In this document: piece by piece, positions 47,712-64,000 of the stretch
Numbering within the stretch: the first letter of the stretch is position 1
Layout: the number at the start of each line of letters is the position of its first letter
DNA from: Leeuwenhoekiella aestuarii
Lineage (GTDB): Bacteria > Bacteroidota > Bacteroidia > Flavobacteriales > Flavobacteriaceae
NCBI RefSeq assembly: GCF_004104055.1
Contig: NZ_QOVJ01000001.1
Location: forward strand, 124,001 to 188,000
Length of the DNA stretch: 64,000 bases
Direction of reading: 5' to 3'
The notes under the pieces: generated by a model
Told to the model about the DNA's origin: nothing
Seen by the model: only the letters and a program-made list of their open reading frames with translations
The model's database searches: none
Program-made: the position numbers and the translations under genes

Positions 47712-50700
47712 TTAAGCTTCTATCTCGTTGTCGTAAAAGTGAGTAGCATCGTAAAGCAACTCATCTAATTTTGCATTTTCGAAGCTTACACGCGCTTCAT
47801 CCCAATCGAGATAATTGATAAAATCTTCAACAGCTATTTGCTGATACTGATTGATGGTGTTGATATCAAAATAAAGCCTTCCGGTTCTTCTTACAAAAAA
47901 ATCAGCTAAGCTATTTGTCATCTCATAATGCACACTATACCAAAGCTCTGCACGCAATAAACGATCATTTACATCAGTATTTCTAAAATAATTGATCTTG
48001 TTCTTTATAATCTCGGTTTGCTTACCATAAGTCGAAGTTAAATACCAAGCTTTATACTCAGCATTCTCAATATTCAGAAATTCTAAAACCTCTTGCAATT
48101 GCGCCTGATACTGTTCTACTTCGGTTGAATTACGCATCGCATGAGACGTTAGAGCGATATGCTGTGTACGGGACTCGTCAAAAGTCTTATCGTATTTTTC
48201 TTTAAGACGTTTACTAACGGTTTCATTAACCCGTTGTGCCATTTTTCGGTATCCGGTTAACTTTCCGCCAGCGATTGAAATCAAGCCGCTTTTACTGATG
48301 AACGTTTCATCTTTTCGCGACAGCTCAGAAGGATCTTTTTCTTCTTCGTGAATAAGCGGTCGCAAACCTGCCCAACTTGATTCTACATCTGCTTCGGTTA
48401 AATTGATATCGGGAAATGTACCATTAACCGCATCAAGCAAATACTTAATATCATCTTTTGTAGCTACGACGCGATCTAAATTTCCCGAATAATTGGTATC
48501 TGTCGTACCCACATAAGTAACTCTACCGCGCGGAATCGCAAAAATCATACGCCCGTCTGACACATCAAAATACAGTGACTGATGTACGGGTAATTTTTCC
48601 TTCGAAAAAACCAAGTGCACCCCTTTTGTGAGGTGCAAATGTTTATTATTCATCGACTCATCTTTCGCCCGAAGCTTATCTACCCAAGGTCCGGCTGCCG
48701 AGACAAAAGTTCGACCTTCTATCTCAAAAGATTGACCGGTATTGTGATCCAAACAATTTACGCTCGTAATCTTGCCTTTATAGTTGTAGACAAAATCACT
48801 CATCTCACAGTAATTGAGACAAACCGCACCAAACCCGGCGGCTTTTTTCATCAATTCTATAGTGAGACGTGCATCGTCTGTGCGATACTCGGCATAATAC
48901 CCACCTCCCAAAACTTTAGATTCATCCAGAATAGGTTCGCGCTCCAGCGTTTCTTCTTTAGTAAGCATCTGGCGTTTATCATCGCCTTCAACACTAGCGA
49001 GCAAATCATAGACTTTTAGACCTATTGAAGTCAACGTTTTACCATATTGCCCACCTTCAATTAACGGAAGCAACATCTTTTCCGGAACTACCAAATGCGG
49101 AGCCAGTTTATGAACAATCGCCCGCTCTGTACCCGATTCTTTTACCAGACCGATTTCCATCTGTTTAAGATAGCGCAAGCCACCGTGAACCAACTTGGTA
49201 CTTTTATTACTCGTTCCCGAAGCAAAATCATTTTTCTCTACGAGGCACACACTCATTCCACGGGTCGCAGCATCTAGAGCAATCCCAGCTCCGGTAACAC
49301 CACCCCCTATGATTACCAAATCAAATTTTTTCTTCTTGGCTTTTTTAATGTAGCGTTTACGGTCTATAATACTAAAACGCAGCGGCGTTTTTTCTTTTTC
49401 TAAACTTTCGGCATAGCCAGAACGGGTTCGCATCACTGCCAGATCCCATCCTTCTTGTTTGTGATTACGCTCACGAACACCCATTTTTGTTTCAAAAATA
49501 AGTTCTATTTTACGCAAGGAGGCGATATCTTTTTGTGTCCAGATTTCTGCTTTTATACCTGCGAGTAGCGCTGCTCCCATTGCAGTTACCTCTAACATCT
49601 CTGGGCGATCTACCTTAGCATCAAGCAAATCTGCCTGAAACTGCATCAGATAATCATTTGCACAAGCGCCACCATCAACTTTTAATGTTTTGATCTGCTT
49701 ACCGCTGTCTTGTTCCATCGCTTTGATCAGATCACTCACCTGGTAAGCCATAGCTTCAACAGTAGCTTTTACAAGTTCTTTTCTACCGGTACTAAAGGTT
49801 AAACCTTGAATACTTCCTTTTGCGTTTCCATCCCAATAAGGAGCACCTAAGCCGTTAAAAGCAGGGACAAAAAACAAATCTTTAAGCGGCGGAATACTTT
49901 GACAAATTGCGTTAGTTTCTTCGGCATTCTCAATAATCCCAACCTGGTCACGCAACCATTGTATAGAAGCTCCTCCAACAAAAACACTTCCTTCTAAAGC
50001 ATATTTAGGTTTCTTATCTTCAAGTGTGCAACAAAGTGTGGTAATAAGTCCATTCTTTGAGAAAGAAGGTTTTTTACCGGTATTGAGCAACATAAAACAT
50101 CCGTTACCGTAGGTGTTCTTTGCCATCCCAGATTTATAACCACCCTGACCAAAAAGTGCCGCTTGCTGATCTCCCGCAACTCCGTAAATAGGAAATGAAG
50201 TATTCTGATAGGTAATGCTTCCAAAATCTGATGAAGAAGGTTGTACTTTAGGCAGCATATTTTTTGGGATACCCAACTCTTCAAGCAAGTCATCATCCCA
50301 GTCCATCTCTTTAATATTATAAAGCATGGTCCTGCTCGCATTGGTGTGGTCTGTGCGGTGTTTTCCCGTAAATTTAAAAATTAACCAACTGTCTACTGTT
50401 CCGAATAGCAGGTCCCCGGCTTCTGCTTTTTCACGAGCATCTTCAATATGATCCAGAATCCATTTAATCTTTGTTGCCGAAAAATAACTGTCTATTACAA
50501 GTCCTGTATTTTTAGCTATATAGCGAGAGAGACCACGTTCACGCAGTCCCTCACAAATATCTTCAGTTCGTTTATCAAGCCAGCAAATCGCATTGTAAAC
50601 AGGTTCTCCTGTATGCTTATCCCAAACGATCGTCGTTTCTCGTTGATTGGTAATACCTATAGCTTTTATAGCTTTAAGAGGAACATTTGCTTTTGCAATC

Positions 50701-50888
50701 ACATCTTCAAAAGTCTCCTGCTGATCTCTAAATAGCTGCATAGGGTCGTGCTCAACCCATCCCGATTGTGGGTAATGCTGTGTCAGTTCTTTTTGAGATA
50801 CTGCAACAATCCCACCTTTCTCATCAAATAAGATGGCTCGGGTACTGGTTGTTCCCTGATCAAAAGCTATGATATATGAAGTGTTCAT
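47712..50888 (-). CDS. Fused glycerol kinase - glycerol-3-phosphate dehydrogenase
   Basis: One uninterrupted 1058-residue frame holds two complete enzymes. Residues about 1-500 are glycerol kinase: FDQGTTSTRAI, ITNQRETTIVWDK, then GVAGDQQAALFGQ and KVDGGACANDYLMQFQ. After a basic linker (KKAKKKK, about 516-522), residues 523-1058 are a GlpA/GlpD-type FAD dehydrogenase: dinucleotide loop IIGGGVTGAG (Gly528-530), NKSTKLVHGGLRYL, AAGPWVD and a C-terminal helical domain. The kinase product is the substrate of the dehydrogenase, so the fusion would pass glycerol 3-phosphate to DHAP inside one protein. It starts directly after the galM stop. No glpF is adjacent. Confidence 0.93.
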   Translation of the reverse strand: MNTSYIIAFDQGTTSTRAILFDEKGGIVAVSQKELTQHYPQSGWVEHDPMQLFRDQQETFEDVIAKANVPLKAIKAIGITNQRETTIVWDKHTGEPVYNAICWLDKRTEDICEGLRERGLSRYIAKNTGLVIDSYFSATKIKWILDHIEDAREKAEAGDLLFGTVDSWLIFKFTGKHRTDHTNASRTMLYNIKEMDWDDDLLEELGIPKNMLPKVQPSSSDFGSITYQNTSFPIYGVAGDQQAALFGQGGYKSGMAKNTYGNGCFMLLNTGKKPSFSKNGLITTLCCTLEDKKPKYALEGSVFVGGASIQWLRDQVGIIENAEETNAICQSIPPLKDLFFVPAFNGLGAPYWDGNAKGSIQGLTFSTGRKELVKATVEAMAYQVSDLIKAMEQDSGKQIKTLKVDGGACANDYLMQFQADLLDAKVDRPEMLEVTAMGAALLAGIKAEIWTQKDIASLRKIELIFETKMGVRERNHKQEGWDLAVMRTRSGYAESLEKEKTPLRFSIIDRKRYIKKAKKKKFDLVIIGGGVTGAGIALDAATRGMSVCLVEKNDFASGTSNKSTKLVHGGLRYLKQMEIGLVKESGTERAIVHKLAPHLVVPEKMLLPLIEGGQYGKTLTSIGLKVYDLLASVEGDDKRQMLTKEETLEREPILDESKVLGGGYYAEYRTDDARLTIELMKKAAGFGAVCLNYCEMSDFVYNYKGKITSVNCLDHNTGQSFEIEGRTFVSAAGPWVDKLRAKDESMNNKHLHLTKGVHLVFSKEKLPVHQSLYFDVSDGRMIFAIPRGRVTYVGTTDTNYSGNLDRVVATKDDIKYLLDAVNGTFPDINLTEADVESSWAGLRPLIHEEEKDPSELSRKDETFISKSGLISIAGGKLTGYRKMAQRVNETVSKRLKEKYDKTFDESRTQHIALTSHAMRNSTEVEQYQAQLQEVLEFLNIENAEYKAWYLTSTYGKQTEIIKNKINYFRNTDVNDRLLRAELWYSVHYEMTNSLADFFVRRTGRLYFDINTINQYQQIAVEDFINYLDWDEARVSFENAKLDELLYDATHFYDNEIEA

Positions 50889-52075: not shown

Positions 52076-52561
52076 ATGAGATTCGCACTAATTTTCATAC
52101 TATTGATTCCAATTTGTGGCTTCGGTCAGAAAAAAACTATAGACAAATTACTCGATGTTTATAACACGCGCAGTGTGCCTTATATTTCGGTGCAAGAACT
52201 CAAAATGCAACCGGAAGCCTATATCATTCTAGACACACGTAAAAGAGCGGAATTTAATGTGAGTCATCTTCCTAATGCGGTTTGGGTGGGAGAAAAACCT
52301 GATGAAGAATTGTTTGATTCTATCCTGAATTCAAAAAAAACAGTAGTAGTCTATTGTACAGTTGGCATTCGCAGTGAAGACTATGGCGAAAAATTGAATC
52401 GGACGAACAACAAGCAACTCTACAACCTTTACGGCGGCATCTTCGCCTGGAAGGATGCTGGTTATGAAGTGCTTGATCTCAAAGGCAAACCCACTGAAAA
52501 AATCCACACATTTTCAAAAAATTGGCAAGATTATTTAAAAACCGGGATCGCAGTTTATTAA
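52076..52561 (+). CDS. Exported rhodanese-like sulfurtransferase
   Basis: A 161-residue protein with a signal peptide (MRFALIFILLIPICGFGQ) and one rhodanese domain: YIILDTRKRAEFNVSHLPNAV, then the active-site loop YCTVGIRSE with Cys94, and LYGGIFAWKDAGYEV. The six-residue loop after Cys is rhodanese-like and not phosphatase-like. It is the first plus-strand gene of the arsenosugar block and lies 27 bases before the first DUF2064 gene, which suggests a linked role, perhaps in sulfur or redox chemistry at the envelope. A TAGGTTTT box at about 52040 may be its promoter. Confidence 0.88.
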   Translation: MRFALIFILLIPICGFGQKKTIDKLLDVYNTRSVPYISVQELKMQPEAYIILDTRKRAEFNVSHLPNAVWVGEKPDEELFDSILNSKKTVVVYCTVGIRSEDYGEKLNRTNNKQLYNLYGGIFAWKDAGYEVLDLKGKPTEKIHTFSKNWQDYLKTGIAVY

Positions 52562-52588
52562 TTTTGGTTATTTAATTAAAAACGTGCA

Positions 52589-53269
52589 ATGGGTTTATTA
52601 AGCAAAAAAGACACAGACGAAGAAAAAGACTTCGAAGCAGAATTTCATTTCCCCACATCAGACAAAACCCTTTTAATTTTTACCCGAAATCCAGAATTGG
52701 GTAAAGTAAAAACACGTCTTGCCGGCGGAGTGGGTGACCAAGCTGCCCTGGAAATCTATACATTTTTACTGAAGCACACGGTAAGCATAACGCAGAGCTT
52801 AACGGCCGACAAGCAGGTGTTTTATTCTGAGAAAATACGCTCTGGTGATTTTTGGGATGAAGAAAAATTCACTAAAAAACTACAACACGGGGAAGATCTG
52901 GGCTTACGCATGCAACGTGCATTTCAAGACGCTTTTAAAAGCGGCTATCAAAAAGCAATAATAATAGGCAGTGATATGTATGACCTGTCGCAAAAAGACC
53001 TCGAGCAGGCTTTTAATGCACTGGATGATCACGATTTTGTAATAGGGCCCGCAGAAGATGGCGGCTACTATTTACTGGGAATGAACGAACTTAAAGCTGA
53101 ACTCTTTCAGCATAAAAAATGGGGTACAGAAACCGTTCTTAAAGACACACTTGCCGATTTGAAAGAAGAATCTGTTAAATTGCTGGAAACCCGTAATGAT
53201 GTAGATTACTACGAAGACATAAAAGGTATTGAGGCGTTTTTCCCTTTTTTACCACAACATTTGAAATAA
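52589..53269 (+). CDS. DUF2064/TIGR04282-type arsenosugar glycosyltransferase (first copy)
   Basis: A 226-residue GT-A-like nucleotidyl/glycosyl transferase of the family found beside radical SAM ArsS genes. The nucleotide-binding signature is intact: IFTRNPELGKVKTRLAGGVG (about 31-50). The acidic motif IIGSDMYDLS and GPAEDGGYYLLGM follow, as does W..ETVLKDTL. In arsenosugar loci it is proposed to join a sugar part or aglycone to the dimethylarsinoyl ribose. It has no signal peptide. Gaps are 27 bases before and 7 bases after, so it is in an operon with the phosphorylase. Confidence 0.87.
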   Translation: MGLLSKKDTDEEKDFEAEFHFPTSDKTLLIFTRNPELGKVKTRLAGGVGDQAALEIYTFLLKHTVSITQSLTADKQVFYSEKIRSGDFWDEEKFTKKLQHGEDLGLRMQRAFQDAFKSGYQKAIIIGSDMYDLSQKDLEQAFNALDDHDFVIGPAEDGGYYLLGMNELKAELFQHKKWGTETVLKDTLADLKEESVKLLETRNDVDYYEDIKGIEAFFPFLPQHLK

Positions 53270-53276
53270 ACAACCT

Positions 53277-54089
53277 ATGAAAAAATTTATTGAAGAATCT
53301 GCGCAATTCTTAAAAGAGCGTGGCTTTGAAGCTCCCGAGATCGGTATCATTTTAGGAACCGGCCTTGGGCAGTTTGTTGACAAAGTTGAAATCATCAGCT
53401 CGGTAAGTTATAATCACATTCCAAATTTCCCTACAGCCACCGTAGAATTCCATACCGGAAAATTGATTTACGGTACGCTGGGCGGAAAAAAAGTGATCGT
53501 AATGCAGGGGCGTTTTCATATTTACGAGGGCTACACCTTACGTGATGTAAGTTACCCGGTACGCGTTATGAATGAACTGGGCATCAAAAAACTCCTCATA
53601 AGTAATGCGGCAGGCGCCATCAACCTCAACTTTAAGAAGGGCGAAATTATGCTCATTGAAGACCACATCAATTTGCAGGGCGGCTCTCCTTTAGCGTTTA
53701 AAGGTGTTGAGCAATTAGGTTCTCGTTTCACTGATATGAGCGAACCCTATGATGTACCTATGCGGAATATTTTAAAAGAAATCGCTGCAGAAAATAACAT
53801 CACGTTGCACGAAGGTGTTTATACATCAGTGGTAGGACCTCAGCTTGAAACCCGCGCTGAATATCGCTTCTTAAAGATTATAGGTTCTGACACAGTGGGA
53901 ATGAGTACCGTTCCCGAAGTTATTGTAGCCAATCACCTCGATCTGCCTGTTGCTGCTGTTTCGGTAATCACAGACGAGTGTGACCCTGAGAATCTGGAGC
54001 CGGTAAACATTCAGGATATTATGGATGCTGCTGCACTAGCCGAACCGAATATGGTACTGCTTTTTACACAACTCATCGAAAAACTTTAG
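53277..54089 (+). CDS. Purine nucleoside phosphorylase (PNP-I family)
   Basis: A 270-residue trimeric-type phosphorylase splitting purine nucleosides to base and ribose 1-phosphate. Motifs are GIILGTGLGQFVDK, MQGRFHIYEGY, SNAAGAINLNFKKGEIMLI and the base-pocket run TVGMSTVPEVIVANHLD. It lies 7 bases after the first DUF2064 gene, inside the arsenosugar block. There it could remove adenine from the arsenic-deoxyadenosine made by ArsS (inference); a plain salvage role is the alternative. The PNP-I family usually prefers hypoxanthine or guanine, so substrate use needs testing. Confidence 0.92.
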   Translation: MKKFIEESAQFLKERGFEAPEIGIILGTGLGQFVDKVEIISSVSYNHIPNFPTATVEFHTGKLIYGTLGGKKVIVMQGRFHIYEGYTLRDVSYPVRVMNELGIKKLLISNAAGAINLNFKKGEIMLIEDHINLQGGSPLAFKGVEQLGSRFTDMSEPYDVPMRNILKEIAAENNITLHEGVYTSVVGPQLETRAEYRFLKIIGSDTVGMSTVPEVIVANHLDLPVAAVSVITDECDPENLEPVNIQDIMDAAALAEPNMVLLFTQLIEKL

Positions 54090-54179
54090 GATTTTCGGTC
54101 TTATAAAAACCATACTTTACAAATCTCCGTAACTACTCATGTAGTTATGAATATTGAATAACTCGAAACAAAAAACAAA

Positions 54180-54515
54180 ATGGCTAATAATTATTACGAT
54201 CCCGCAGACCTTAGAAAATTTGGTAAAATCACCGAATGGAGTGAAGAACTAGGCACAAAATTCTTTGATTACTATGGAAAAGTTTTTGAAGAAGGAGCCC
54301 TTACCGCTCGCGAGAAAGCGCTTATTGCACTCGCTGTTGCACATACCGAGCAATGTCCCTATTGCATCGATGCCTATACCAAAGACAACTTACAACGCGG
54401 GGTTACAAAAAAGCAAATGATGGAAGCCATTCACGTAGGAGCTGCTATTAAAAGCGGTGCGACTTTAGTACATGGTACCATGATGATGAATAAGGTTAAT
54501 AAGTTAGAAATGTAA
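54180..54515 (+). CDS. Arsenosugar-associated peroxidase-like (AhpD/CMD) protein
   Basis: A 111-residue carboxymuconolactone decarboxylase/AhpD-fold protein with the redox motif CPYC (Cys59 and Cys62, in HTEQCPYCIDAYTKD). Its neighbours and sequence match the small peroxidase-like proteins found directly before arsS in many bacteria. The fold suggests alkylhydroperoxidase-like thiol chemistry, perhaps reducing arsenic or thiols needed for transfer, which is inference. A 90-base gap separates it from the phosphorylase gene and 67 bases separate it from arsS. Confidence 0.88.
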   Translation: MANNYYDPADLRKFGKITEWSEELGTKFFDYYGKVFEEGALTAREKALIALAVAHTEQCPYCIDAYTKDNLQRGVTKKQMMEAIHVGAAIKSGATLVHGTMMMNKVNKLEM

Positions 54516-54582
54516 GCCTTGGCTAATTATTTCATTAACTAAACCTTATCTTAGTCATTGCTGAAAAAGAAAAAAATACTGT

Positions 54583-55650
54583 ATGTCTGTAACTAAATCA
54601 AAAAAATCCCTTCACAAACGTCATGATGATCTGGCTCAGGCGAATAAACAGCTTGAGATTTTATCGGGTGGTATTTTTGCTGATGGAGAATTACCCACGT
54701 TTGCAAAAAAAATAAAGGAAACCAATCAGTTTCCCTTACGTCCTAAAAAGCTAGAGATCCTGCAAATCAATGTGGGTTATATGTGCAACCAGGTTTGTGA
54801 GCATTGTCACGTAGATGCCGGTCCAGATCGTAAAGAGATCATGACCTGGGAGACGATGGAACAATGTCTCGAAGTGATTAAAAACACAGGTGCACACACG
54901 CTTGATTTAACCGGTGGCGCTCCTGAGATGAATCCGCATTTTAGACGTTTTGTTGAAGAAGCCAGCAAAGCCGGCATCAAAGATTTTATCGTGCGCAGTA
55001 ACCTTACCATTATTCGTGCGAATAAAAAATATTACGACTTGCCTGATTTTTTCAAAAAACACAACGTTCACGTGGTGAGTTCTATGCCGCACTGGACACG
55101 AGGAAAAACCGATAAGCAACGCGGCGAAGGTGTTTTTGATCTTTCTATAAAAGCCTTGCAGGAATTGAATGAAAGAGGCTACGGAATGCCCGATAGCGAT
55201 TTGCGCTTAGACTTGGTTTACAATCCCAATGGTGCGTATTTACCTTCTGATCAGGCCGGAATGGAAAAAGATTTCAAAAAAGCCCTGATGGAAGATTTTG
55301 GGATTCAATTTCACAACCTGTTTGCCATAACCAATTTACCTATCGCCCGTTTTCTGGATTACTTAATCGCTTCAGAAAATTATGAAGATTATATGTATCA
55401 ACTCGTAGATGCCTACAATCCGGCTGCAGTTGCAAATGTGATGTGTACCAATACGATTTCAATCAGTTGGGACGGGTGGTTGTATGATTGTGATTTCAAC
55501 CAAATGTTAGATTTAAAAGTCAACAGTAAGGTGAAGCATATTTCTGATTACAACGAAGATTTGCTTAACGATCGTGACATCATCATCTCACAACATTGCT
55601 ACGGTTGTACTGCGGGCGCAGGAAGCAGCTGCCAGGGAACAGTTGCTTAA
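54583..55650 (+). CDS. arsS: Arsenosugar biosynthesis radical SAM protein ArsS
   Basis: A 355-residue radical SAM enzyme with a Cys-rich C-terminal domain. The 4Fe-4S motif is CNQVCEHC (Cys68, Cys72, Cys75), followed by LDLTGGAPEMNPHFR. The C-terminal domain has MCTNTISISWDGWLYDCDF and QHCYGCTAGAGSSCQG. In characterised systems this family transfers a 5'-deoxyadenosyl group from SAM to dimethylarsenite, giving a dimethylarsinoyl deoxyadenosine. The family was earlier annotated as a rSAM/selenodomain protein. It ends 20 bases before a second DUF2064 gene and works with ArsM at the end of the window. Confidence 0.94.
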   Translation: MSVTKSKKSLHKRHDDLAQANKQLEILSGGIFADGELPTFAKKIKETNQFPLRPKKLEILQINVGYMCNQVCEHCHVDAGPDRKEIMTWETMEQCLEVIKNTGAHTLDLTGGAPEMNPHFRRFVEEASKAGIKDFIVRSNLTIIRANKKYYDLPDFFKKHNVHVVSSMPHWTRGKTDKQRGEGVFDLSIKALQELNERGYGMPDSDLRLDLVYNPNGAYLPSDQAGMEKDFKKALMEDFGIQFHNLFAITNLPIARFLDYLIASENYEDYMYQLVDAYNPAAVANVMCTNTISISWDGWLYDCDFNQMLDLKVNSKVKHISDYNEDLLNDRDIIISQHCYGCTAGAGSSCQGTVA

Positions 55651-55670
55651 CTCAATAGCACGCATTTTTA

Positions 55671-56354
55671 TTGAAGACGAAAACTGCCATATTAATTTTT
55701 GCCCGTTCGGCGCAGCAAGAAGCATTAGATAAAGGGTTTCGCAATGCGATCTCTGTTTTTGAAGTGCTTAATGCTCAGGTTTTAAAGACGGTTAAACAAA
55801 CCGGACTGCCGTATTTTTTATATTCGGAAGAAAAACAGCGAGGAGCTACATTTGGCGAGCGGTTTACTCATGCAATACAGGACATTTACAATCTGGGGTT
55901 TGACCAGATCATCTGTGTAGGTAATGACAGTCCGCATCTTACTAAAAAGCATTTCATCGCGGCTGAAGAACATTTGAAAACCTGCCCGTTAGTTTTAGGG
56001 CCTTCAGTTGATGGTGGTTTTTACTTAATGGGGCTAAGAAAGTCACATTTCAACCCGGTATCCTTTTTAAAATTACCGTGGCAGACTCAAGGTTTAATGA
56101 CCAGCATTATTCGCCTGGTACATTCAAAAAAGATTGAAGCTGCATTTCTCGAAACGCTTCAGGATCTGGACACCGCTTCAGACATTTCGCAACTTTTACA
56201 AGTCAAAAAAAGCCTTCCGTTCAAGATTCAACACCTTTTAAAGAAGTACGTTCAGAAAGCCTTTCAAACTTCCTATTATCAAGACCTCTTTTTTCAAAAG
56301 GTCTGTTCGCTTACTTATTACAATAAAGGTTCTCCGGCTAGTTTAAGTATTTAA
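55671..56354 (+). CDS. Divergent DUF2064 protein (second copy, nucleotide loop not conserved)
   Basis: A 227-residue GT-A-like protein starting at TTG (55671) with KTKTAILIFARSAQQEA. The family's GKVKTRL loop is missing and is replaced by AQQEALDKGFRNA. The acidic motifs VGNDSPHLTKKHF and GPSVDGGFYLMGL remain. The C-terminal 40 residues are basic and unlike the first copy. It may be a partner subunit or have a different donor. It lies 20 bases after arsS. Assignment to the family is by fold motifs; function is unknown. Confidence 0.82.
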   Translation: MKTKTAILIFARSAQQEALDKGFRNAISVFEVLNAQVLKTVKQTGLPYFLYSEEKQRGATFGERFTHAIQDIYNLGFDQIICVGNDSPHLTKKHFIAAEEHLKTCPLVLGPSVDGGFYLMGLRKSHFNPVSFLKLPWQTQGLMTSIIRLVHSKKIEAAFLETLQDLDTASDISQLLQVKKSLPFKIQHLLKKYVQKAFQTSYYQDLFFQKVCSLTYYNKGSPASLSI

Positions 56355-56424
56355 GACACATTCTCTTTGTCTTGCTGCTCGCTGTACATCTGGCAGCTTT
56401 CTTTTACTAATCTGAAACAAAAAA

Positions 56425-59400
56425 ATGAAACACCTTTATTTTGGGCTTATGCTCTTGCTTTGTGCATTTGCAAACGGCCAGACTACCATTACGGGTACGG
56501 TAACCACATCTAGTGATGACTCAACCGTTCCGTTCGTAAACGTTATTGCTGTGGGCACAGATGCTGCAACAATCACCGATGAAAATGGAAACTATCAAAT
56601 TGAAGTGCCTGAAGCAGGATCTCAACTGCGTTTTTCAGCAATAGGATTTAGTACCCAGACTATTGCGATTAACGGGCAAACTACCATCAATATCAGCTTA
56701 CAAGAATCGACTACAGATTTAGATGAAGTCGTCATCACAGCTTTAGGTCTCGAACGCGAAACCAAAGAGCTGGGCTATGTGGTGCAAACCATAGAAGCCG
56801 AAGAAGTTTCGGAGGTAAAAGCTCCCAACTTTCTGGATAATCTTGCCGGAAAGCTTGCCGGTGTAACGGTGTCTCAAGGTGCGACCGGAGTGGGATCTTC
56901 TTCAAAAATCACCATACGTGGAGAAGCTTCTTTTTCTAATAACAATCCGTTGTTTATCGTTGATGGAACGCCCATTAACAACAACACCGTTTTTAATGAA
57001 AGTAATGAAGCTGCGGCCGGTTTTCAAGAGATCGATTTTGGTAACGGCGCGATGGAAGTGAATCCTGATGATATCGCTTCGGTAAGTGTTTTAAAAGGAC
57101 CAAGTGCTGCTGCACTATACGGTACGCGTGCCTCAAATGGGGTTATTATTATTGAAACCAAAAACGGAAGTCAACGTAAAGGATTGGGCATCAGCATCAA
57201 CACTTCACTGTTTATAGATACACCTTTTAAACTGCCGGAATTTCAAAATCAATACGGTCAGGGAAATTCGGGGCAATTTGAATTTGTTGACGGTTTAGGC
57301 GGCGGGATTAATGATCTTATCTCCTATTCATGGGGACCGCGTTTAGATCAGGGCACCTTGATCGCTCAGTTTGATTCCCCGGTAACCTTAGCCGATGGAA
57401 CTGTTGCTCGCGGCGGTGATACTTCGTTATACTCAGGGAACACCATCACCCCAACGGCCTTCAATTCACATCCCGATAATCTGAAGGATTTTTACGAGAC
57501 CGGAGTCACCACAATAAACAATGTGGCTATCGGCAGCAGTTTTGACAAAGGAAACTACCGCATTTCATTTACCGATCTGCGCAGTGAAGCTATCATTCCC
57601 GGCGTCAATCTCGATCGACAGACTGTAGCTACAAAACTGAACTTTAAACCTACCGACAAAACAACATTTAATGCCTCTATAAGCTATGTAAATTCGGGGA
57701 GCGACAACCGCCCTTCTAATGGGTACGGTAGTGAAAATGTGAATTATGCACTAGTGGCCTGGGGACCGCGCTCGCTAGACATAAACAGTTTGCGCCAATA
57801 CTGGCAACCGGGTCTTGAAGGTGTACAGCACTATTCTTTTAATTACACGTATTTCGATAATCCGTTTTTTACGATGTACGAAAACCGCAACTCGTTTAAC
57901 CGGGATCGTGTTTTCGGGAATATGTCGATTAAACAACAGATTACAGATAACCTGAGCATATCGCTTCGTTCGGGGATGGATTATTCTAGTGAAACCCGCA
58001 AATTACGCCGGGCTTTCAGTTCAAATCGTTTTAAAAATGGAGGTTACGCTGAGCACGATGTGTTTTACCGAGAGATCAACACCGATTTCCTGATCAATTA
58101 CAAAACTATTTTTGGTGCTATTTCTTTAGATGTTTCGCTGGGCGGAAACCGTCTGGATCAAAAAGCATCAACAAAACAATCGCAAACCGTTAATCTTGCG
58201 CAACCGGGTATTTTCAATCTGAATAATGCTGCATCGCCTATTGATGTGTTTCAATTTGAATCAAACAAACGTATCAATTCGCTCTACGGAATTGCAAAGC
58301 TAGGCTACCGCGGATTTCTATTTCTGGATATAACCGGCCGTAACGATTGGTCGAGTGCACTGGCTACACCATTTTCGGTTGACGGGACTTCCTTCTTTTA
58401 CCCTTCGGCTTCTGCTAGTTTTATTCTTTCTGAAGTTGCAAAATTGCCCGAAGCACTCTCCTATGTACAACTTCGTGCGAGTGTGGCACAAGTAGGTAAC
58501 GACACGCAACCCTATCAAACCAGCGGTGCGTTTATTTCGCAGACGCCTTATATTGGTCAACCTACGTTTAGTGATCAAAATTTCATACCAAATGCCAATT
58601 TAAAACCCGAGCAAACAACGTCCTATGAAGTGGGAGCAGATATTCGCTTTTTAAAAGATCGCATTCGTCTGGATGCGACCTATTACAATGCGTTGACTAA
58701 AGATCAGATCATCTCCCTGCCTATCGCGATTTCTTCAGGTTACAATCAGCAGGTGGTAAATGGCGGTGAAGTTCGTACCCAGGGGGTTGAGCTAATCGCA
58801 GCTATCACACCGGTTTTGACCGGTAATTTCAAATGGAATACCACCTTTAATTTCAGCACCAGTACTTCACGGGTAGAAAGCTTACCACAGTCTGACGGAA
58901 GACTGACTCTGGCTTACAGCCGAATCTATGATAGTGCCAATCAAACGGTTTGGTTTCAGGTTGAAGAAGGCGGAAAAATTGGGGATATCTACGGAACCGG
59001 GTATCAAAAAACCGAAGACGGTCAATTCATTTTAACCGCAGACGGAAGCTATATCGCAGATAATAATCTAAAGAAAATAGGGAATTACACCCCCGATTTT
59101 ATGTTGGGCTGGAACAACAGTTTTAATTATAAAAACTGGAATTTGAGTTTCTTATTCGACTGGAGACAAGGTGGCGAACTCGTTTCGCGTACGCGTGCAT
59201 TAGGAACCGTTGGCGGCCAGCTTGCAGAAACCGCTAATCGCCCTGCAGAAGGTATAATTCCGCAAGGAGTTGTAAATGTAGGTACAGCTGCAAATCCGCA
59301 ATACGAACCCAATACTACGGCAGTTTCAGCAGAAACCTATTACCGTCAGTTTTACGATCGCAACCACGAAGAAAATAATATTTATGACGCTTCCTTTTTG

Positions 59401-59640
59401 AAGCTGCGTCAATTTTCTTTGGGCTACACCTTCAATCTAAAAGATGGCTTTTTAGGCTTATCTAACGGCATGGACATCGATCTGGCGCTTGTGGGTCGCA
59501 ATCTGTTTGCATTATCAGAGATTCCACATTTTGATCCTGAGCAACTCGCGGTTCAGGGAACCGGTTTTGTTAGCGGTGTTGAAGATATGAGTTATGCGAC
59601 CACGCGTAGCATTGGTTTAAAAGCGGGCTTTAATTTCTAA
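56425..59640 (+). CDS. SusC/RagA-family TonB-dependent outer-membrane receptor
   Basis: A 1071-residue outer-membrane transporter: signal peptide (to about 18), a carboxypeptidase-like beta-sandwich (about 19-95), the SusC signature VVITALGLERETKELGYVV, a plug domain with IRGEASFSNNNPLFIVDGTP and NGVIIIETK, and a 22-strand barrel ending SIGLKAGFNF. It imports a bulky substrate with TonB energy and its SusD partner 31 bases downstream. Its place inside the arsenosugar block is unusual, and the substrate is unknown. A 70-base gap separates it from the second DUF2064 gene. Confidence 0.93.
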   Translation: MKHLYFGLMLLLCAFANGQTTITGTVTTSSDDSTVPFVNVIAVGTDAATITDENGNYQIEVPEAGSQLRFSAIGFSTQTIAINGQTTINISLQESTTDLDEVVITALGLERETKELGYVVQTIEAEEVSEVKAPNFLDNLAGKLAGVTVSQGATGVGSSSKITIRGEASFSNNNPLFIVDGTPINNNTVFNESNEAAAGFQEIDFGNGAMEVNPDDIASVSVLKGPSAAALYGTRASNGVIIIETKNGSQRKGLGISINTSLFIDTPFKLPEFQNQYGQGNSGQFEFVDGLGGGINDLISYSWGPRLDQGTLIAQFDSPVTLADGTVARGGDTSLYSGNTITPTAFNSHPDNLKDFYETGVTTINNVAIGSSFDKGNYRISFTDLRSEAIIPGVNLDRQTVATKLNFKPTDKTTFNASISYVNSGSDNRPSNGYGSENVNYALVAWGPRSLDINSLRQYWQPGLEGVQHYSFNYTYFDNPFFTMYENRNSFNRDRVFGNMSIKQQITDNLSISLRSGMDYSSETRKLRRAFSSNRFKNGGYAEHDVFYREINTDFLINYKTIFGAISLDVSLGGNRLDQKASTKQSQTVNLAQPGIFNLNNAASPIDVFQFESNKRINSLYGIAKLGYRGFLFLDITGRNDWSSALATPFSVDGTSFFYPSASASFILSEVAKLPEALSYVQLRASVAQVGNDTQPYQTSGAFISQTPYIGQPTFSDQNFIPNANLKPEQTTSYEVGADIRFLKDRIRLDATYYNALTKDQIISLPIAISSGYNQQVVNGGEVRTQGVELIAAITPVLTGNFKWNTTFNFSTSTSRVESLPQSDGRLTLAYSRIYDSANQTVWFQVEEGGKIGDIYGTGYQKTEDGQFILTADGSYIADNNLKKIGNYTPDFMLGWNNSFNYKNWNLSFLFDWRQGGELVSRTRALGTVGGQLAETANRPAEGIIPQGVVNVGTAANPQYEPNTTAVSAETYYRQFYDRNHEENNIYDASFLKLRQFSLGYTFNLKDGFLGLSNGMDIDLALVGRNLFALSEIPHFDPEQLAVQGTGFVSGVEDMSYATTRSIGLKAGFNF

Positions 59641-59671
59641 AGCCTTAAAGGCTATCTAAACGTTTAAAAAG

Positions 59672-61114
59672 ATGAAAAATACACTATATAAAATACTGAT
59701 GGTAACGCTGGTTGTTTTTACCGGATGCACAGCAGATTTTGAAGAATTAAATACCAATCCCAATGCGCCGGTAAGCGTACAGCCGGGATTGTTGCTTCGG
59801 CAGGTGATTTATGATTTTGGCGAGCAAATGAGTTATGAAGGTTTTGCCGCCGGTGATTTGTTATCACAACACCGCACCGCATTAGATTTCAATTTATTTG
59901 ATCGTCACGCGCTAAAATCTCCACAATTGGGCGGAAATCCCTGGCCGATATTTTACACCAATCTTAGAGATAACGAATTGTTATTACAACAAGCTCAGAG
60001 CAGCGAGACCTTTAAAGTTTATGAAGGCCCCGCCTTGATTTTAAAAGCCTATATGGCACAAGGCCTAACGGATCTTTTTGGCGACGTTCCCTATTTTGAA
60101 GCTTTTGATGGTATTAACGGAACGGTAACAGCCACCTACGATGCTCAGGAAGACATCTATCTCACCGAAGGCGGCATTCTGGATAATCTGGATCAAGGTA
60201 TAGCTGCGCTCAACGCATACGACGGTGCCGTAGCTTTAGAAGGAGATTTGCTTTTTTCGGGAGACTTAGACAATTGGGTTCAGTTTGCAAATTCGTTAAA
60301 ACTGAAAGCTTTGATGCGCATTTCAAGCCGGGAAGATGTGGCAGGTGAAATCGCTTCCATTTTTGCTGCCGGAAATTACATCGGTAACAATTCAGACAAT
60401 GCGGTTTTTGATTTTACAAATTCGGCTCCTAATAGTTTCCGCTTTGCGCAATTAAGGGCAGGAGATTTCAACAACTTTGTACTTTCTGAAACCATGGAAG
60501 AAATCTTAACTGATCTTGATGACCCGCGTATCGCTGTTTTCTTCAGGCCATTTGCAAATTCAACTTCAGGAGCATTTAACGGATTGATCAACGGGATTAA
60601 CGCCTCGCAAACTTCTATTGAACCCGCAAACTATTCCCTTGCGGGAACGCTTTTTAGAGAGAACACCGCTCAACTAGACGCTAATTTTATGACGGCGTGG
60701 GAAACACAGTTTATTCTTGCAGAAGCAGCAGCAAAAAGATATATCTCAGCAGACGCAGAAACCATATACAATACAGGTGTTCAACTGGCTTTTGAGTATT
60801 GGCTCACCGAATTACCGGCTGATTATTTGTCTGGTGCTGCAGCTTATGATGCGCCCGGCACCACGCCTCTAGAACAAATTATCACCCAGAAATGGATTGC
60901 CAATATCATCAACGGCTATGAGGGTTGGGTAGAATGGCGCCGCACGGGCTTCCCGGAATTTAAACCGGTTGCTGCGAGTTTGAATGATGGACTTATCCCT
61001 GTACGTATGCCTTATCCTGCAGAAGAACAAGCGCTGAATGCAGACAACTATCAAGCTGCGGCAGCAGCGACAAATGACAACAGTCTGAATGCACCGGTAT
61101 GGTGGGATAATTAA
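59672..61114 (+). CDS. SusD/RagB-family nutrient-binding outer-membrane lipoprotein
   Basis: A 480-residue lipoprotein with a type II signal: hydrophobic MVTLVVFTGC, with the lipobox Cys near residue 19 followed by TADFEELNTNPNAP. The mature protein is helical with TPR-like pairs and resembles the SusD-like subfamily that starts with the DFEELNTNPN block. Further blocks are AYMAQGLTDLFGDVPYFEA and INGYEGWVEWRRTGFPEF. With SusC it forms the lid of an outer-membrane importer. Its presence between SusC and a symporter suggests one uptake route from the outside to the cytosol. Confidence 0.93.
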   Translation: MKNTLYKILMVTLVVFTGCTADFEELNTNPNAPVSVQPGLLLRQVIYDFGEQMSYEGFAAGDLLSQHRTALDFNLFDRHALKSPQLGGNPWPIFYTNLRDNELLLQQAQSSETFKVYEGPALILKAYMAQGLTDLFGDVPYFEAFDGINGTVTATYDAQEDIYLTEGGILDNLDQGIAALNAYDGAVALEGDLLFSGDLDNWVQFANSLKLKALMRISSREDVAGEIASIFAAGNYIGNNSDNAVFDFTNSAPNSFRFAQLRAGDFNNFVLSETMEEILTDLDDPRIAVFFRPFANSTSGAFNGLINGINASQTSIEPANYSLAGTLFRENTAQLDANFMTAWETQFILAEAAAKRYISADAETIYNTGVQLAFEYWLTELPADYLSGAAAYDAPGTTPLEQIITQKWIANIINGYEGWVEWRRTGFPEFKPVAASLNDGLIPVRMPYPAEEQALNADNYQAAAAATNDNSLNAPVWWDN

Positions 61115-61139
61115 TTTTTGAATTTATAAACAACTAACA

Positions 61140-62477
61140 TTGAATATAGCAATCTGGCAATGGGGTTTAATAAGCGTATCAAGTTTGGTACTGTTTGTTA
61201 TTTCGCCACTGGCCAAAACTAAAAGTGACTTCTTCAAAGCTACACACCGTAAAAAAGCACCCAATGTGTTTATGCTTACGGGTAGTCTCATTATCTCCTG
61301 GATTTTTGCAAAAAGCATCACCAATGCTGCAAATTTAGGATTAGAATTTGGTATCGTAGGTGGGGTTGCTTATGCAGGCTATTACCTGTCTTTTGCCATC
61401 GCCGGGATCTTGATTTATAACATTCGTACGCGGGGTGGTTATGAAAGTTTACATGAGTTTTTTACCTCACGATTTGGTAAAAACGCGATGCGCATCTTCT
61501 CCGTTTTAATCGCAATACGACTCTTTAACGAGGTTTGGAGTAACACGATGGTAATCGGTAGTTATTTTGGAGATCTGGGCAGCACACCCTATTATGCTTC
61601 CATAATCGTGTTTACATTACTTACCCTGGCATACTCTTTAAAAGGTGGGCTCGGCAGTTCGATCTTTACCGATGTAATTCAGATGGGGTTATTCGGGATT
61701 TTGCTATTTGTGGTTTTAGCGAGTATTTATTCAACAACAAATTTCACCGTTGCAGAAACTGTAACCAGTGGGGTTTGGAGTTTTGATATGGGCTTGAATC
61801 TGCTTTTTGCAGCGCTTTTGCAATCCTTTAGCTATCCCTTTCACGACCCGGTTTTGACAGATCGGGCATTTTTAAGTTCGCCAAAAGTCACCTTAAGCAG
61901 CTTTCTTCTAGCCACTGTTATCGGTGGGGCTTGTATTATTTTATTTAGTATGATTGGCGTGTATGCTAAAACTATGGGAATGCAGGGACAGGCGGCTGTA
62001 GAAGTGGGCAAAGCCTTTGGAACCGTTATATTACTCATCATTAATTTTATTATGATCACCTCAGCGGCTTCTACCCTGGACTCTACGTTCTCATCGTTCT
62101 CAAAGTTGGCTGCTATCGATTTAAAGCTGGGCGAAAGCATTTCTGTTGGAAGATTAGCAATGTGTGTGCTGGTGGTTTTAGGAACCATACCTATTTTTCT
62201 GGATGCTGAAATCTTATCAGCAACCACCATCTCGGGGACTATGGTTATTGGCCTCACCCCCATTTTCTTTTTCTGGAAATTACCGGCGCCAAAAATCAGT
62301 TTTTATCTGAGTATTTTCTGTGGAATCGCTTTTGGTTTTTTATTGATTTTTGACCTCATCCCAGGTTCCTGGATTTTAACCAGCGGCCCTTATGCTGACT
62401 TGCTTTGGGTGAATATTTGGGGAGTCTTTTCGTGTTTAATTTTATATATGATTCCGGCATGGATAAAACTGTGGTAA
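61140..62477 (+). CDS. Sodium/solute symporter (SSS family) of the arsenosugar block
   Basis: A 445-residue polytopic transporter starting at TTG (61140). It has SSS features: FMLTGSLIISWIFAKSITNAA, GGYESLHEFFTSRFG, SLKGGLGSSIFTDVIQMGLFG and the Na+ site region SAASTLDSTFSSFSKLAAIDL. It differs clearly from the sugar symporter at 40.4 kb (about 100 residues shorter, no WGTNQQ block). The gap to susD is 25 bases. It overlaps the phosphoesterase start by 19 bases. The transported compound could be a nucleoside, sugar or arsenical; the sequence does not tell. Confidence 0.88.
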   Translation: MNIAIWQWGLISVSSLVLFVISPLAKTKSDFFKATHRKKAPNVFMLTGSLIISWIFAKSITNAANLGLEFGIVGGVAYAGYYLSFAIAGILIYNIRTRGGYESLHEFFTSRFGKNAMRIFSVLIAIRLFNEVWSNTMVIGSYFGDLGSTPYYASIIVFTLLTLAYSLKGGLGSSIFTDVIQMGLFGILLFVVLASIYSTTNFTVAETVTSGVWSFDMGLNLLFAALLQSFSYPFHDPVLTDRAFLSSPKVTLSSFLLATVIGGACIILFSMIGVYAKTMGMQGQAAVEVGKAFGTVILLIINFIMITSAASTLDSTFSSFSKLAAIDLKLGESISVGRLAMCVLVVLGTIPIFLDAEILSATTISGTMVIGLTPIFFFWKLPAPKISFYLSIFCGIAFGFLLIFDLIPGSWILTSGPYADLLWVNIWGVFSCLILYMIPAWIKLW

Positions 62478-63340
62478 ATAACCTTGAGACAAGCCAGACC
62501 TCTAAAGATTCCAATGGCGATAATCGAGTACATTTGGGTTCCTTAACAGGAAAAGTGTTATTGTTTGGTGGCGTGTATAGCAATCTTCAGGCATTAGAAC
62601 AACTCAAGCGTATAGCCGAAGAACAAGGCATTCCGCCCGAAAATTGTATCTGTACGGGTGATATTGTGGGCTATTGTGCGCAGCCTGAAGAAGCGGTTCA
62701 GCTCTTTAAAATCTGGGGAGCAAAAAGCATTTTGGGGAATGTGGAAATCCAGCTGCGGGACGGGGCTGAAGATTGCGGCTGTGACTTTAGAAAAGGTTCA
62801 CGATGCGATGGGTTTTCGCAGCTGTGGTTTCCGTATGCACAGAGTAAGCTGAGTAAAAGTTCACTTGATTTTATCTCGACACTGCCCGATCATATTGATT
62901 TCCAATATGCAGGAAAAGAGGTCACAGTCGTTCACGGTGATTATTTCAACGTTTCCGAATTTATATACAAGTCAACCGAGTGGCAAATCAAACAAAAAAA
63001 CTTTGATGCAACCGGTGCCGATGTGATTATCGCCGGCCATTGCGGATTGCCCTTCCATCAGGAAAAGGAAGAAAAAATCTGGCTCAATCCCGGCGTGATC
63101 GGGATGCCGGCAAATGATGGTTCGCCTCAGGTTTGGTACGCAGTTCTTGATGATTCGATGGCAACCTTCCATTTTAAACATCATCAGATGGAGTACAATT
63201 ACAAACTGGCAAATGCCAGAATGCAAACCGACTTTTTACCACAAGAATATGCCCGTACGCTAATCACAGGAATATGGGATAATACCGAGATTTTGCCCCC
63301 TTACGAGAGTGGACTGCAGGGCTTCGGTATTCAATTATAA
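62459..63340 (+). CDS. Metallophosphoesterase-like protein with altered metal motifs
   Basis: A 293-residue calcineurin-like fold protein. The start at 62459 (MDKTVVNNLE) is preferred over 62405, which lies deep in the symporter gene. The order of family motifs is kept but residues differ: the first block is FGGVYSN and not GDxHGN, so Asp and His are lost; GDIVGY is normal; GNVE replaces GNHD/E; VHGDYF keeps its His; and GHCGLP replaces GHTH. C-terminal blocks WLNPGVIGMPANDG and IWDNTEILPP are typical of a subfamily I associate with arsenosugar loci. It may dephosphorylate a ribose phosphate intermediate (inference). Confidence 0.87.
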   Translation: MDKTVVNNLETSQTSKDSNGDNRVHLGSLTGKVLLFGGVYSNLQALEQLKRIAEEQGIPPENCICTGDIVGYCAQPEEAVQLFKIWGAKSILGNVEIQLRDGAEDCGCDFRKGSRCDGFSQLWFPYAQSKLSKSSLDFISTLPDHIDFQYAGKEVTVVHGDYFNVSEFIYKSTEWQIKQKNFDATGADVIIAGHCGLPFHQEKEEKIWLNPGVIGMPANDGSPQVWYAVLDDSMATFHFKHHQMEYNYKLANARMQTDFLPQEYARTLITGIWDNTEILPPYESGLQGFGIQL

Positions 63341-63390
63341 AAAAATTTTAACCCGGGATGGTTTCGGCCGTTTCCTTAAAACATGTATTT

Positions 63391-64000
63391 ATGAGCTATT
63401 TAGAGACTACCAAAAATGTGTATCGCGATGCCGCTTTAACTCCAGATGTAGGATTATGCTGCACCACCAACCCGATCTGGGAATTACCGGGTTTAAAAAT
63501 CCCAAAAATTATGCAGGAGATGAATTACGGTTGCGGAAGCACCGTAAATGCCCGTGACCTTACTAACAATCCTAGGGTTCTCTACGTAGGTGTAGGTGGC
63601 GGAATGGAATTGCTGCAGTTTGCCTATTTCTCCCGTCAAAAAAGTGGTGTGGTAGGAGTTGATGTCGTAGATGAAATGCTGGAAGCTTCGCGTAAAAACT
63701 TCATCGAGGCCGAAGCTCAAAACTCCTGGTTTAAAAGTGAATTTGTAGACCTCAAAAAAGGAGACGCCTTAAACCTTCCTGTTGAAGACAACAGTATTGA
63801 TGTGGCTGCACAAAATTGCCTGTTCAATATTTTTAAGACCGAAGAACTCAAGAAAGCTATTGATGAAATGTACCGTGTTTTAAAACCCCACGGAAGGCTG
63901 GTTATGAGCGATCCTACCTGTGAGCAGGAGATGAACGAAACGCTGCGTAACGATGAGCGTTTGCGTGCCCTGTGCCTTAGCGGAAGCTTACCCATCAAAG
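63391..64000 (+). CDS. arsM: Arsenosugar biosynthesis arsenite methyltransferase ArsM (partial, 3' end beyond window)
   Basis: An open frame from ATG 63391 to the window end, 203 codons. It begins MSYLETTKNVYRDAALTPDV and has GLCCTTNPIWELPG with Cys23 and Cys24, MNYGCGST with Cys48, the SAM loop VLYVGVGGGMELLQF, and IDVAAQNCLFNIF. These features identify the ArsM subtype of arsenosugar loci, which methylates As(III) to dimethylarsenite for ArsS. The cysteines are the expected arsenic ligands. It follows the phosphoesterase by 50 bases. Its C-terminus and any downstream ars genes lie outside the window. Confidence 0.93.
   Translation, partial: MSYLETTKNVYRDAALTPDVGLCCTTNPIWELPGLKIPKIMQEMNYGCGSTVNARDLTNNPRVLYVGVGGGMELLQFAYFSRQKSGVVGVDVVDEMLEASRKNFIEAEAQNSWFKSEFVDLKKGDALNLPVEDNSIDVAAQNCLFNIFKTEELKKAIDEMYRVLKPHGRLVMSDPTCEQEMNETLRNDERLRALCLSGSLPIK

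Follow-up and report, generated by a model that had tools for sequence, protein, structure and literature searches.

The 64,000-nucleotide stretch of Leeuwenhoekiella aestuarii DNA analysed here (G000:C1:124001-188000, the window) carries an arsenosugar locus. Comparison with related genomes supports a SusC/SusD pair and a sodium/solute symporter as a conserved part of this locus in a minority of the genomes with ArsS. The genes are all on the + strand in the order RHO-D1-PNP-CMD-ArsS-[D2-SusC-SusD-SSS-MPE]-ArsM, where RHO is a rhodanese, D1 and D2 are the first and second DUF2064 proteins, PNP is a purine nucleoside phosphorylase, CMD is an AhpD-like CxxC protein, ArsS is a radical SAM enzyme, SSS is a divergent sodium/solute symporter, MPE is a phosphoesterase-fold protein and ArsM is an arsenite methyltransferase. 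The integration of an uptake cassette in the arsenosugar operon is well supported. From gene content and sequence we infer the direction of transport, the substrate and the roles of MPE and D2; on this basis the cassette would import an exogenous organoarsenical, probably an arsenosugar-type riboside, feeding the ArsS/PNP/D1 pathway, a reading to which we give slightly less than an even chance. A preliminary description of this DNA had named these genes with the right positions and strand, and its ArsM and ArsS are confirmed by the NCBIfam cut-offs. It also had ArsM and ArsS bracketing the remaining genes, which is correct for the import block D2-SusC-SusD-SSS-MPE between ArsS and ArsM but not for RHO, D1, PNP and CMD, which precede ArsS.

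The survey comprised 397 genomes of the family from 237 genera, 288 of them with ArsS over the TIGR04167 cut-off; G292, with a partial ArsS match and ArsM present, was counted as ArsS-less. The symporter was found at E<=1e-30 in 52 genomes (37 genera), all of these matches being 58-100% identical with E<=1e-158, and it is present in 51 of the 288 ArsS genomes compared with 1 of the 109 ArsS-less genomes. The 20-kb stretches read around each of the 52 symporter genes contained ArsS in 50 cases, MPE in 51, SusC and SusD in 48 and D2 in 47. The inner order D2-SusC-SusD-SSS-MPE is found in 47 of these loci, the detected genes of the block, CMD and ArsS are on the same strand in all 52, and the median spacing between neighbouring genes is -58 to 117 bases with frames taken from the first start codon. 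The recurring inner order and the shared strand show that the arrangement of the block is not a matter of chance. The linkage of SusCD and symporter to arsS, which the preliminary description had proposed to compare across relatives, thus holds. A search with SusD only gave 48 genomes at 64-100% identity, all with symporter and ArsS, and the next relatives were at most 41% identical. In a separate collection of 80 named loci, from genomes partly overlapping the 52, ArsS was found in 78 (the contig ends earlier in the other two), SusC and SusD in 77 and all five genes of the block, again in the inner order given above, in 73.

The surroundings of the block differ between lineages. In Leeuwenhoekiella the structure is RHO-D1-PNP-CMD-ArsS-[block]-ArsM, in most loci CMD-ArsS-[block]-RHO-D1-PNP(-ArsM) and in Maribacter-type genomes [block]-CMD-ArsS, where PNP was not found within the 20 kb read. 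The Maribacter-type genomes also include those with an MPE-CMD fusion, which occurs in 9 of the 52 symporter loci and 16 of the 80 named loci. SSS-MPE occurs without D2 and SusCD in three loci (L067, L073 and L078), and in L072 D2 alone is missing from the block. The ArsS proteins of L078 (G002) and L088 (G389), 57% and 54% identical to the window ArsS, form a long separate branch and have no CMD neighbour; in L078 SSS-MPE follows directly after this divergent, CMD-less ArsS.

The 63 symporter-less ArsS loci used for comparison consist of 49 control loci, chosen from the best-scoring ArsS matches and not at random, and 14 more; some are short, one just 3.6 kb. Neither MPE nor SSS was found in any of the 63, some of which are short. 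The usual core order in the controls is CMD-ArsS-RHO-D1-PNP-ArsM, often followed by fatty-acid-hydroxylase-like, DUF547 and family-2 glycosyltransferase genes. D2 adjoins CMD-ArsS in 10 loci, all of them among the 49 and not the further 14; with 10 of 63 in total D2 is therefore not strictly tied to the importer. The only control with a co-directional SusCD near CMD-ArsS is L109 (genome G343), where the pair is of another type (36% and 32%). SusC-like genes are found on the opposite strand, further off, in L133 and L219, and there are hits of about 50 bits in two more control loci, L086 and L100.

The distribution of ArsM differs between genomes with and without the cassette. The arsenosugar ArsM family (NF038099) was over the cut-off in 226 of the 397 genomes. 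Among the 51 genomes with both symporter and ArsS it was present in 21 and absent in 30, compared with 204 and 33 among the 237 ArsS genomes without symporter (288 ArsS genomes, Fisher p 1.2e-10, with relatedness ignored). Another arsenite methyltransferase was over the cut-off in only one of the 30 ArsM-less carriers (G121); in the others the best methyltransferase match was about 71 bits or less (cut-off 263), and true arsenosugar ArsM proteins score 108-132. Within each of three genera ArsM is present in one carrier and absent in another. The association between cassette and absence of ArsM is clear in the counts but no more than suggestive as to cause. Among the ArsM-less symporter-less loci, 17 of 33 were read, 16 for which coordinates were available and that of G225. 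The loci L087, L117 and L215-L228 are ArsS loci of genomes without arsenosugar ArsM and with no window-type importer beside ArsS.

The ArsS tree comprised 113 loci, with 38 of 110 inner forks open, and was deliberately enriched by adding 14 symporter-less loci without ArsM; the symporter loci L057 and L085, with no ArsS in the stretch, are not part of it. This tree requires no fewer than 13 changes of state for the cassette and 26 for ArsM. An explanation by hitch-hiking, in which a nutrient importer without any role for arsenic came to lie in the operon by chance, is very improbable. No biochemical link between importer and pathway is known, as this explanation would have it, but the symporter is spread over 37 genera, the inner order is kept in 47 and the single strand in all 52 of the symporter loci, fusion to CMD is found in nine, and the repeated changes of state on the tree, many forks being open, also argue against it.

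In the proposed uptake, an exogenous organoarsenical would cross the outer membrane by way of SusC and SusD and the inner membrane by way of the symporter. The most likely such compound is an arsenosugar-type (dimethylarsinoyl) riboside or else a dimethylated arsenical related to it. MPE, with half of a metal site and conserved cysteines, may hand the organoarsenical to CMD or process it together with CMD, after which the imported arsenic would enter the ArsS/PNP/D1 pathway. A carrier could in this way hold the arsenosugar pathway without making all its own dimethylarsenic, in agreement with the many carriers that have no ArsM. The preliminary description had suggested uptake from the presence of a TonB-driven system in this context, and uptake of an organoarsenical or riboside has become the best guess from the ArsM-less carriers and the sister system described below.

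Several observations weigh against an organoarsenical importer. SusCD systems usually serve solutes larger than small arsenicals, no member of the cassette has a known substrate, and the nearest solved relatives of the symporter are CHT1 (choline; E 4.2e-8) and SGLT1 (4.5e-4), over about the first 190 residues. Of the carriers 21 of 51 keep ArsM, and 33 of the 237 symporter-less ArsS genomes are also without it. The SusCD-SSS cassette was found beside ArsS in none of the 17 ArsM-less symporter-less loci read, so ArsM loss has other routes. The ArsS tree gives only five well-supported independent pairs (median p 0.25), in which, on average, ArsM and the cassette differ in opposite directions in 2.7 and in the same direction in 0.1, with no difference in ArsM in 2.2; the counts for both D1 and ArsM ignore the relatedness of the genomes. 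Finally, L057 (G087) has the block with ArsS not in its stretch, and G242 has a lone symporter of 58% identity and no ArsS. That the cassette causes ArsM loss is accordingly not claimed, in view of the ArsM-less genomes without symporter and the p value of the tree pairs.

A sister system was found by following the nearest other SusD proteins (33-41%), 16 loci being read from the listed matches. D2-SusC-SusD occur in the same order in 10 of these 16 loci, from 10 genomes in 6 genera, with 31-36% (D2), 41-44% (SusC) and 36-38% (SusD) identity to the window proteins. ArsS is present in one of the 10 genomes (G225, where the sister set lies elsewhere than the ArsS locus) and arsenosugar ArsM in none. 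In 7 of the 10 cases the genes on either side of the sister cassette are those that flank ArsS in other lineages. The loci contain a nucleoside hydrolase (9 of 10), ABC importer genes (5 of 10) and an APH-type kinase (4 of 10: G203, G370, G129 and G225). Two of the cassette kinases were tested and match only S-methyl-5-thioribose (MTR) kinase in NCBIfam, at 118 and 104 bits (cut-off 275); for the four sister-system kinases tested the best NCBIfam match is MTR kinase at 104-130 bits, again below the cut-off. An MTR-kinase-like gene is present in all 10 sister-set genomes and in none of three controls, and at E<=1e-15 there is none in the genome of the window.

In seven sister genomes such a kinase is found near D1 on the same strand, at 2.0-3.8 kb in six and 6.3 kb in G225. 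The four kinase-D1 places read have the kinase, an open reading frame (ORF) and then RHO-D1-PNP, with no CMD-ArsS-ArsM; the ORF after the kinase is an ADP-ribosylglycohydrolase-family protein in the two that were typed. A kinase-RHO-D1-PNP operon was considered, a candidate weakened by the finding that direct succession occurs only in G001 and the other three are interrupted by opposite-strand genes, three of them in G225 and a single one in the other two places. The one interrupting gene that was typed is of the GH32 family. D1 was present in all 66 genomes of the first set, 65 of which have ArsS, and in 23 of the 80 ArsS-less genomes searched; the search left out low-completeness G003, G048, G081, G192 and G375 and 24 further genomes. 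All 9 ArsS-less sister-cassette genomes have D1 compared with 14 of the 71 other ArsS-less genomes (p 3.5e-6, relatedness ignored).

Salvage of S-methylthioadenosine and S-methylthioribose consists of a nucleosidase and MTR kinase. The sister system likewise pairs a nucleoside hydrolase with MTR-kinase-like kinases; it differs in that the kinases score below the MTR-kinase cut-off and are coupled to D2-SusC-SusD or lie near D1, and in the window they are absent. The sister system, along with the genes beside the more distant SusCD relatives described below, points to (phospho)ribosides, in particular a 5-substituted ribose, as the probable chemistry of D2-SusCD. The sister system and the ArsM pattern are best explained by an organoarsenical cargo of the cassette. 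A wider and more tentative proposal, which is possible but stands well below an even chance, is that D2-SusC-SusD marks a dedicated uptake and salvage of arsenosugars in two versions, one feeding the ArsS operon and one using a hydrolase and an MTR-kinase-like enzyme. The first, that of the window, would let many carriers do without ArsM. In the second, found in ArsM-less and mostly ArsS-less flavobacteria, arsenosugars would be imported and the riboside split by the nucleoside hydrolase, after which the MTR-kinase-like enzyme could phosphorylate 5-dimethylarsinoyl ribose and lead it to the same DUF2064 step with no carbon-arsenic bond formed.

The nucleoside hydrolase of the sister system could also mean that ordinary nucleosides or phosphoribosides are the nutrients which the cassette imports, and that it lies in the operon because PNP uses them. 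This is quite unlikely. None of the 66 genomes has a PNP at E<=1e-40 besides that of the operon, which favours such a nutrient role, but the symporter is almost restricted to genomes with ArsS (51 of 288, compared with 1 of the 109 others), and Maribacter-type cassettes adjoin or fuse with CMD-ArsS where PNP is not found within 20 kb. Moreover, D1, which is itself tied to ArsS, is kept in the sister-set genomes.

The six SusCD relatives read without D2 are more distant, and three of them (L230, L240 and L239) have a type I phosphodiesterase and a purple acid phosphatase as neighbours. One of these, L239 (G000:C13:32000-51999), is in the genome of the window; there a second SusC-SusD (44%/35%) is followed by a type I phosphodiesterase with PA14 domain, an aminotransferase of class III and the purple acid phosphatase. 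These neighbours are in line with an import of a non-arsenical acceptor (the aglycone), for example a glycerophospho- or polyol compound, to which D2 or D1 would join dimethylarsinoyl ribose; the position of D2 at the head of the cassette and its fold, that of nucleotide-sugar and nucleotidyl transferases, agree with this as well. An acceptor importer is nevertheless unlikely, as it leaves unexplained both the frequent absence of ArsM in carriers and the sister set with nucleoside hydrolase and MTR-kinase-like genes in ArsS-less genomes, and D2 is without the N-terminal motif conserved in D1.

D2 (55671..56354, +) matches PF09837 with 69.9 bits (family cut-off 25.8, here and below in brackets after the score). 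For the glycosyltransferase family TIGR04282 it reaches 96.1 of 134 bits and the KTRLA-type motif is absent; the motif of D1 is NPxLGKxKTRLA. The model of D2, as that of MPE, has a mean pLDDT of 88, and it matches 3cgx and CofC-type guanylyltransferases. Alignments for models and profiles used 40 of 48 D2, 34 of 51 MPE and 34 of 52 SSS sequences. The C-terminus of D2 (56316-56354 in the window) is variable except for a pentapeptide near the end, here NKGSP. Nearly all D2 of arsenosugar loci have NKGSP, and all 48 sequences of the first alignment have GSP; L096, compared later, has NKAPP, and the eight aligned proteins of the sister system have xRxPP. The wobble bases vary while the peptide stays the same, which indicates selection on the protein. 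A TPP (thiamine pyrophosphate) riboswitch was considered for the C-terminal AAY AAR GGN TCN CCN and rejected, with no such Rfam match and with the wobble bases varying.

MPE (62459..63340, +; PF12850 40 bits (27)) probably starts at 62459 with a conserved MDK, overlapping the symporter gene, within an ORF open from 62405. It has a calcineurin-like fold, with Foldseek matches to 1nnw, 3rqz and 3qfm at E about 1e-13 to 1e-15, and the model resembles phosphoesterases of the 3rqz/1nnw/SapH type. With YfcE/SapH/3rqz-type metallophosphoesterases it shares, besides the fold, the GD, GN, HG and first GH motifs, but differs by altered ligand motifs, invariant cysteines and the fusion to CMD in some genomes. 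The conserved pattern has GxY for DxH, GNV for GNH and GHCG for GHxH. The two-metal ligand set D,H / D,N,H,H / H is thus incomplete, with changes at three of the seven ligands and also at the histidine of GNH; the second metal site keeps its aspartate, its asparagine and two histidines. Cysteines 68, 78, 111, 113 and 121 (numbering from 62444) occur in every one of the 51 sequences, cysteine 70 in 45 and cysteine 200 in 48. The segment DCGCDFxxGSRCD is a possible counterpart of thiolate arsenic sites. The preliminary description placed a dephosphorylation after PNP and before a transfer by DUF2064. In view of the lost ligands and the absence of MPE from the 63 symporter-less ArsS loci read, some of them short, this order is not supported, and the latter indicates that MPE is not a step of the core pathway and travels with the importer. 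For D2 the transfer is not supported either: the protein lacks the D1 motif and heads the import block in 47 of the 52 symporter loci, besides its occurrence in 10 of the 63 symporter-less loci.

The transport genes are SusC (56425..59640, +), a TonB-dependent outer-membrane transporter with plug, barrel and carboxypeptidase-like domains, the SusD-type lipoprotein (59672..61114, +; PF12771 306.1 bits (27)) and SSS (61140..62477, +). The TonB plug, barrel and SusD domains lie in adjacent genes and identify a SusC/SusD pair, the closest solved SusC being 5fq6 at E 4.9e-116. The domains of SusC, the PF12771 match of SusD and the adjacency are as in known pairs such as BT2263/BT2264 (PDB 5fq6), but the window pair is partnered with a divergent symporter and a radical-SAM arsenical pathway. 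The glycoside hydrolases or lyases expected of a polysaccharide utilisation locus were not found among the eleven genes 52076-64359, and the cassette has no peptidase either. The symporter resembles SSS proteins (SLC5, CHT1, SGLT1) in its profile match, yet forms a group of its own below the family cut-offs, with 18.8 bits for PF00474 (22.8) and 39.7 for TIGR00813 (184).

The resemblance to a choline transporter could suggest a choline- or betaine-like substrate such as arsenobetaine, arsenocholine or glycine betaine. The different SusCD and BCCT betaine/choline transporter before CMD-ArsS in L109 would agree with this. The symporter, however, matches only weakly and over part of its length, L109 is the one locus of this type among the 63 without symporter, and the sister system points to ribosides, which makes such a substrate improbable. 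In L109 (10945-13057 and neighbours) the SusC-SusD pair is accompanied by the BCCT transporter and also by a glutathione peroxidase, so that importers of a second kind can lie at an ArsS locus.

The core genes of the window were identified by ORF calls and profile searches in Pfam and NCBIfam. RHO (52076..52561, +) scores 183.1 bits for NF045521 (145) and its N-terminus resembles, by eye, a secretion signal. D1 (52589..53269, +) scores 223.9 bits for TIGR04282 (134), named 'arsenosugar biosynthesis glycosyltransferase' by NCBI, PNP (53277..54089, +) 335 for NF006054 (218), CMD (54180..54515, +) 188.4 for TIGR04169 (120) and ArsS (54583..55650, +) 434.6 for TIGR04167 (300). ArsM (63358..64000, +) runs on past the window to G000:C1:188359, 359 bases beyond the edge, and scores 574 bits for NF038099 (400) over its full length. 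The core markers ArsS, ArsM, TIGR04282 (D1) and TIGR04169 (CMD) thus all exceed their NCBIfam cut-offs.

That ArsS adenosylates arsenic is taken from PMC12159101. Compared with the known arsenosugar biosynthesis genes (ArsM, ArsS, TIGR04282 and TIGR04169), the window has all core genes and differs by the five inserted genes D2, SusC, SusD, SSS and MPE. None of the NCBIfam models matching window proteins names an arsenosugar importer. The terms 'arsenosugar' and 'TonB' were not found together in the open-access full-text literature, subscription journals and preprints being outside this scope. The parts are of known kinds and their combination was not found in the same literature, a scope that is unable to show absence from print. 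The marine flavobacteria that carry the cassette may take up organic arsenic, possibly of algal origin, rather than only make arsenosugars from inorganic arsenic. If so, some of the arsenosugar 'producers' called from ArsS alone may in part live by recycling, which would change the reading of genomes for the marine arsenic cycle. With a candidate importer that is conserved and genetically defined, uptake could be tested in bacteria that grow in culture.

Upstream of the locus, a 1058-residue frame (47712-50888, -) reads by eye as a glycerol kinase followed by a glycerol-3-phosphate dehydrogenase, a GlpK-GlpD fusion. The GlpK-GlpD-type family (cluster c58) recurs beside the arsenosugar locus in L035, L036 and L038.

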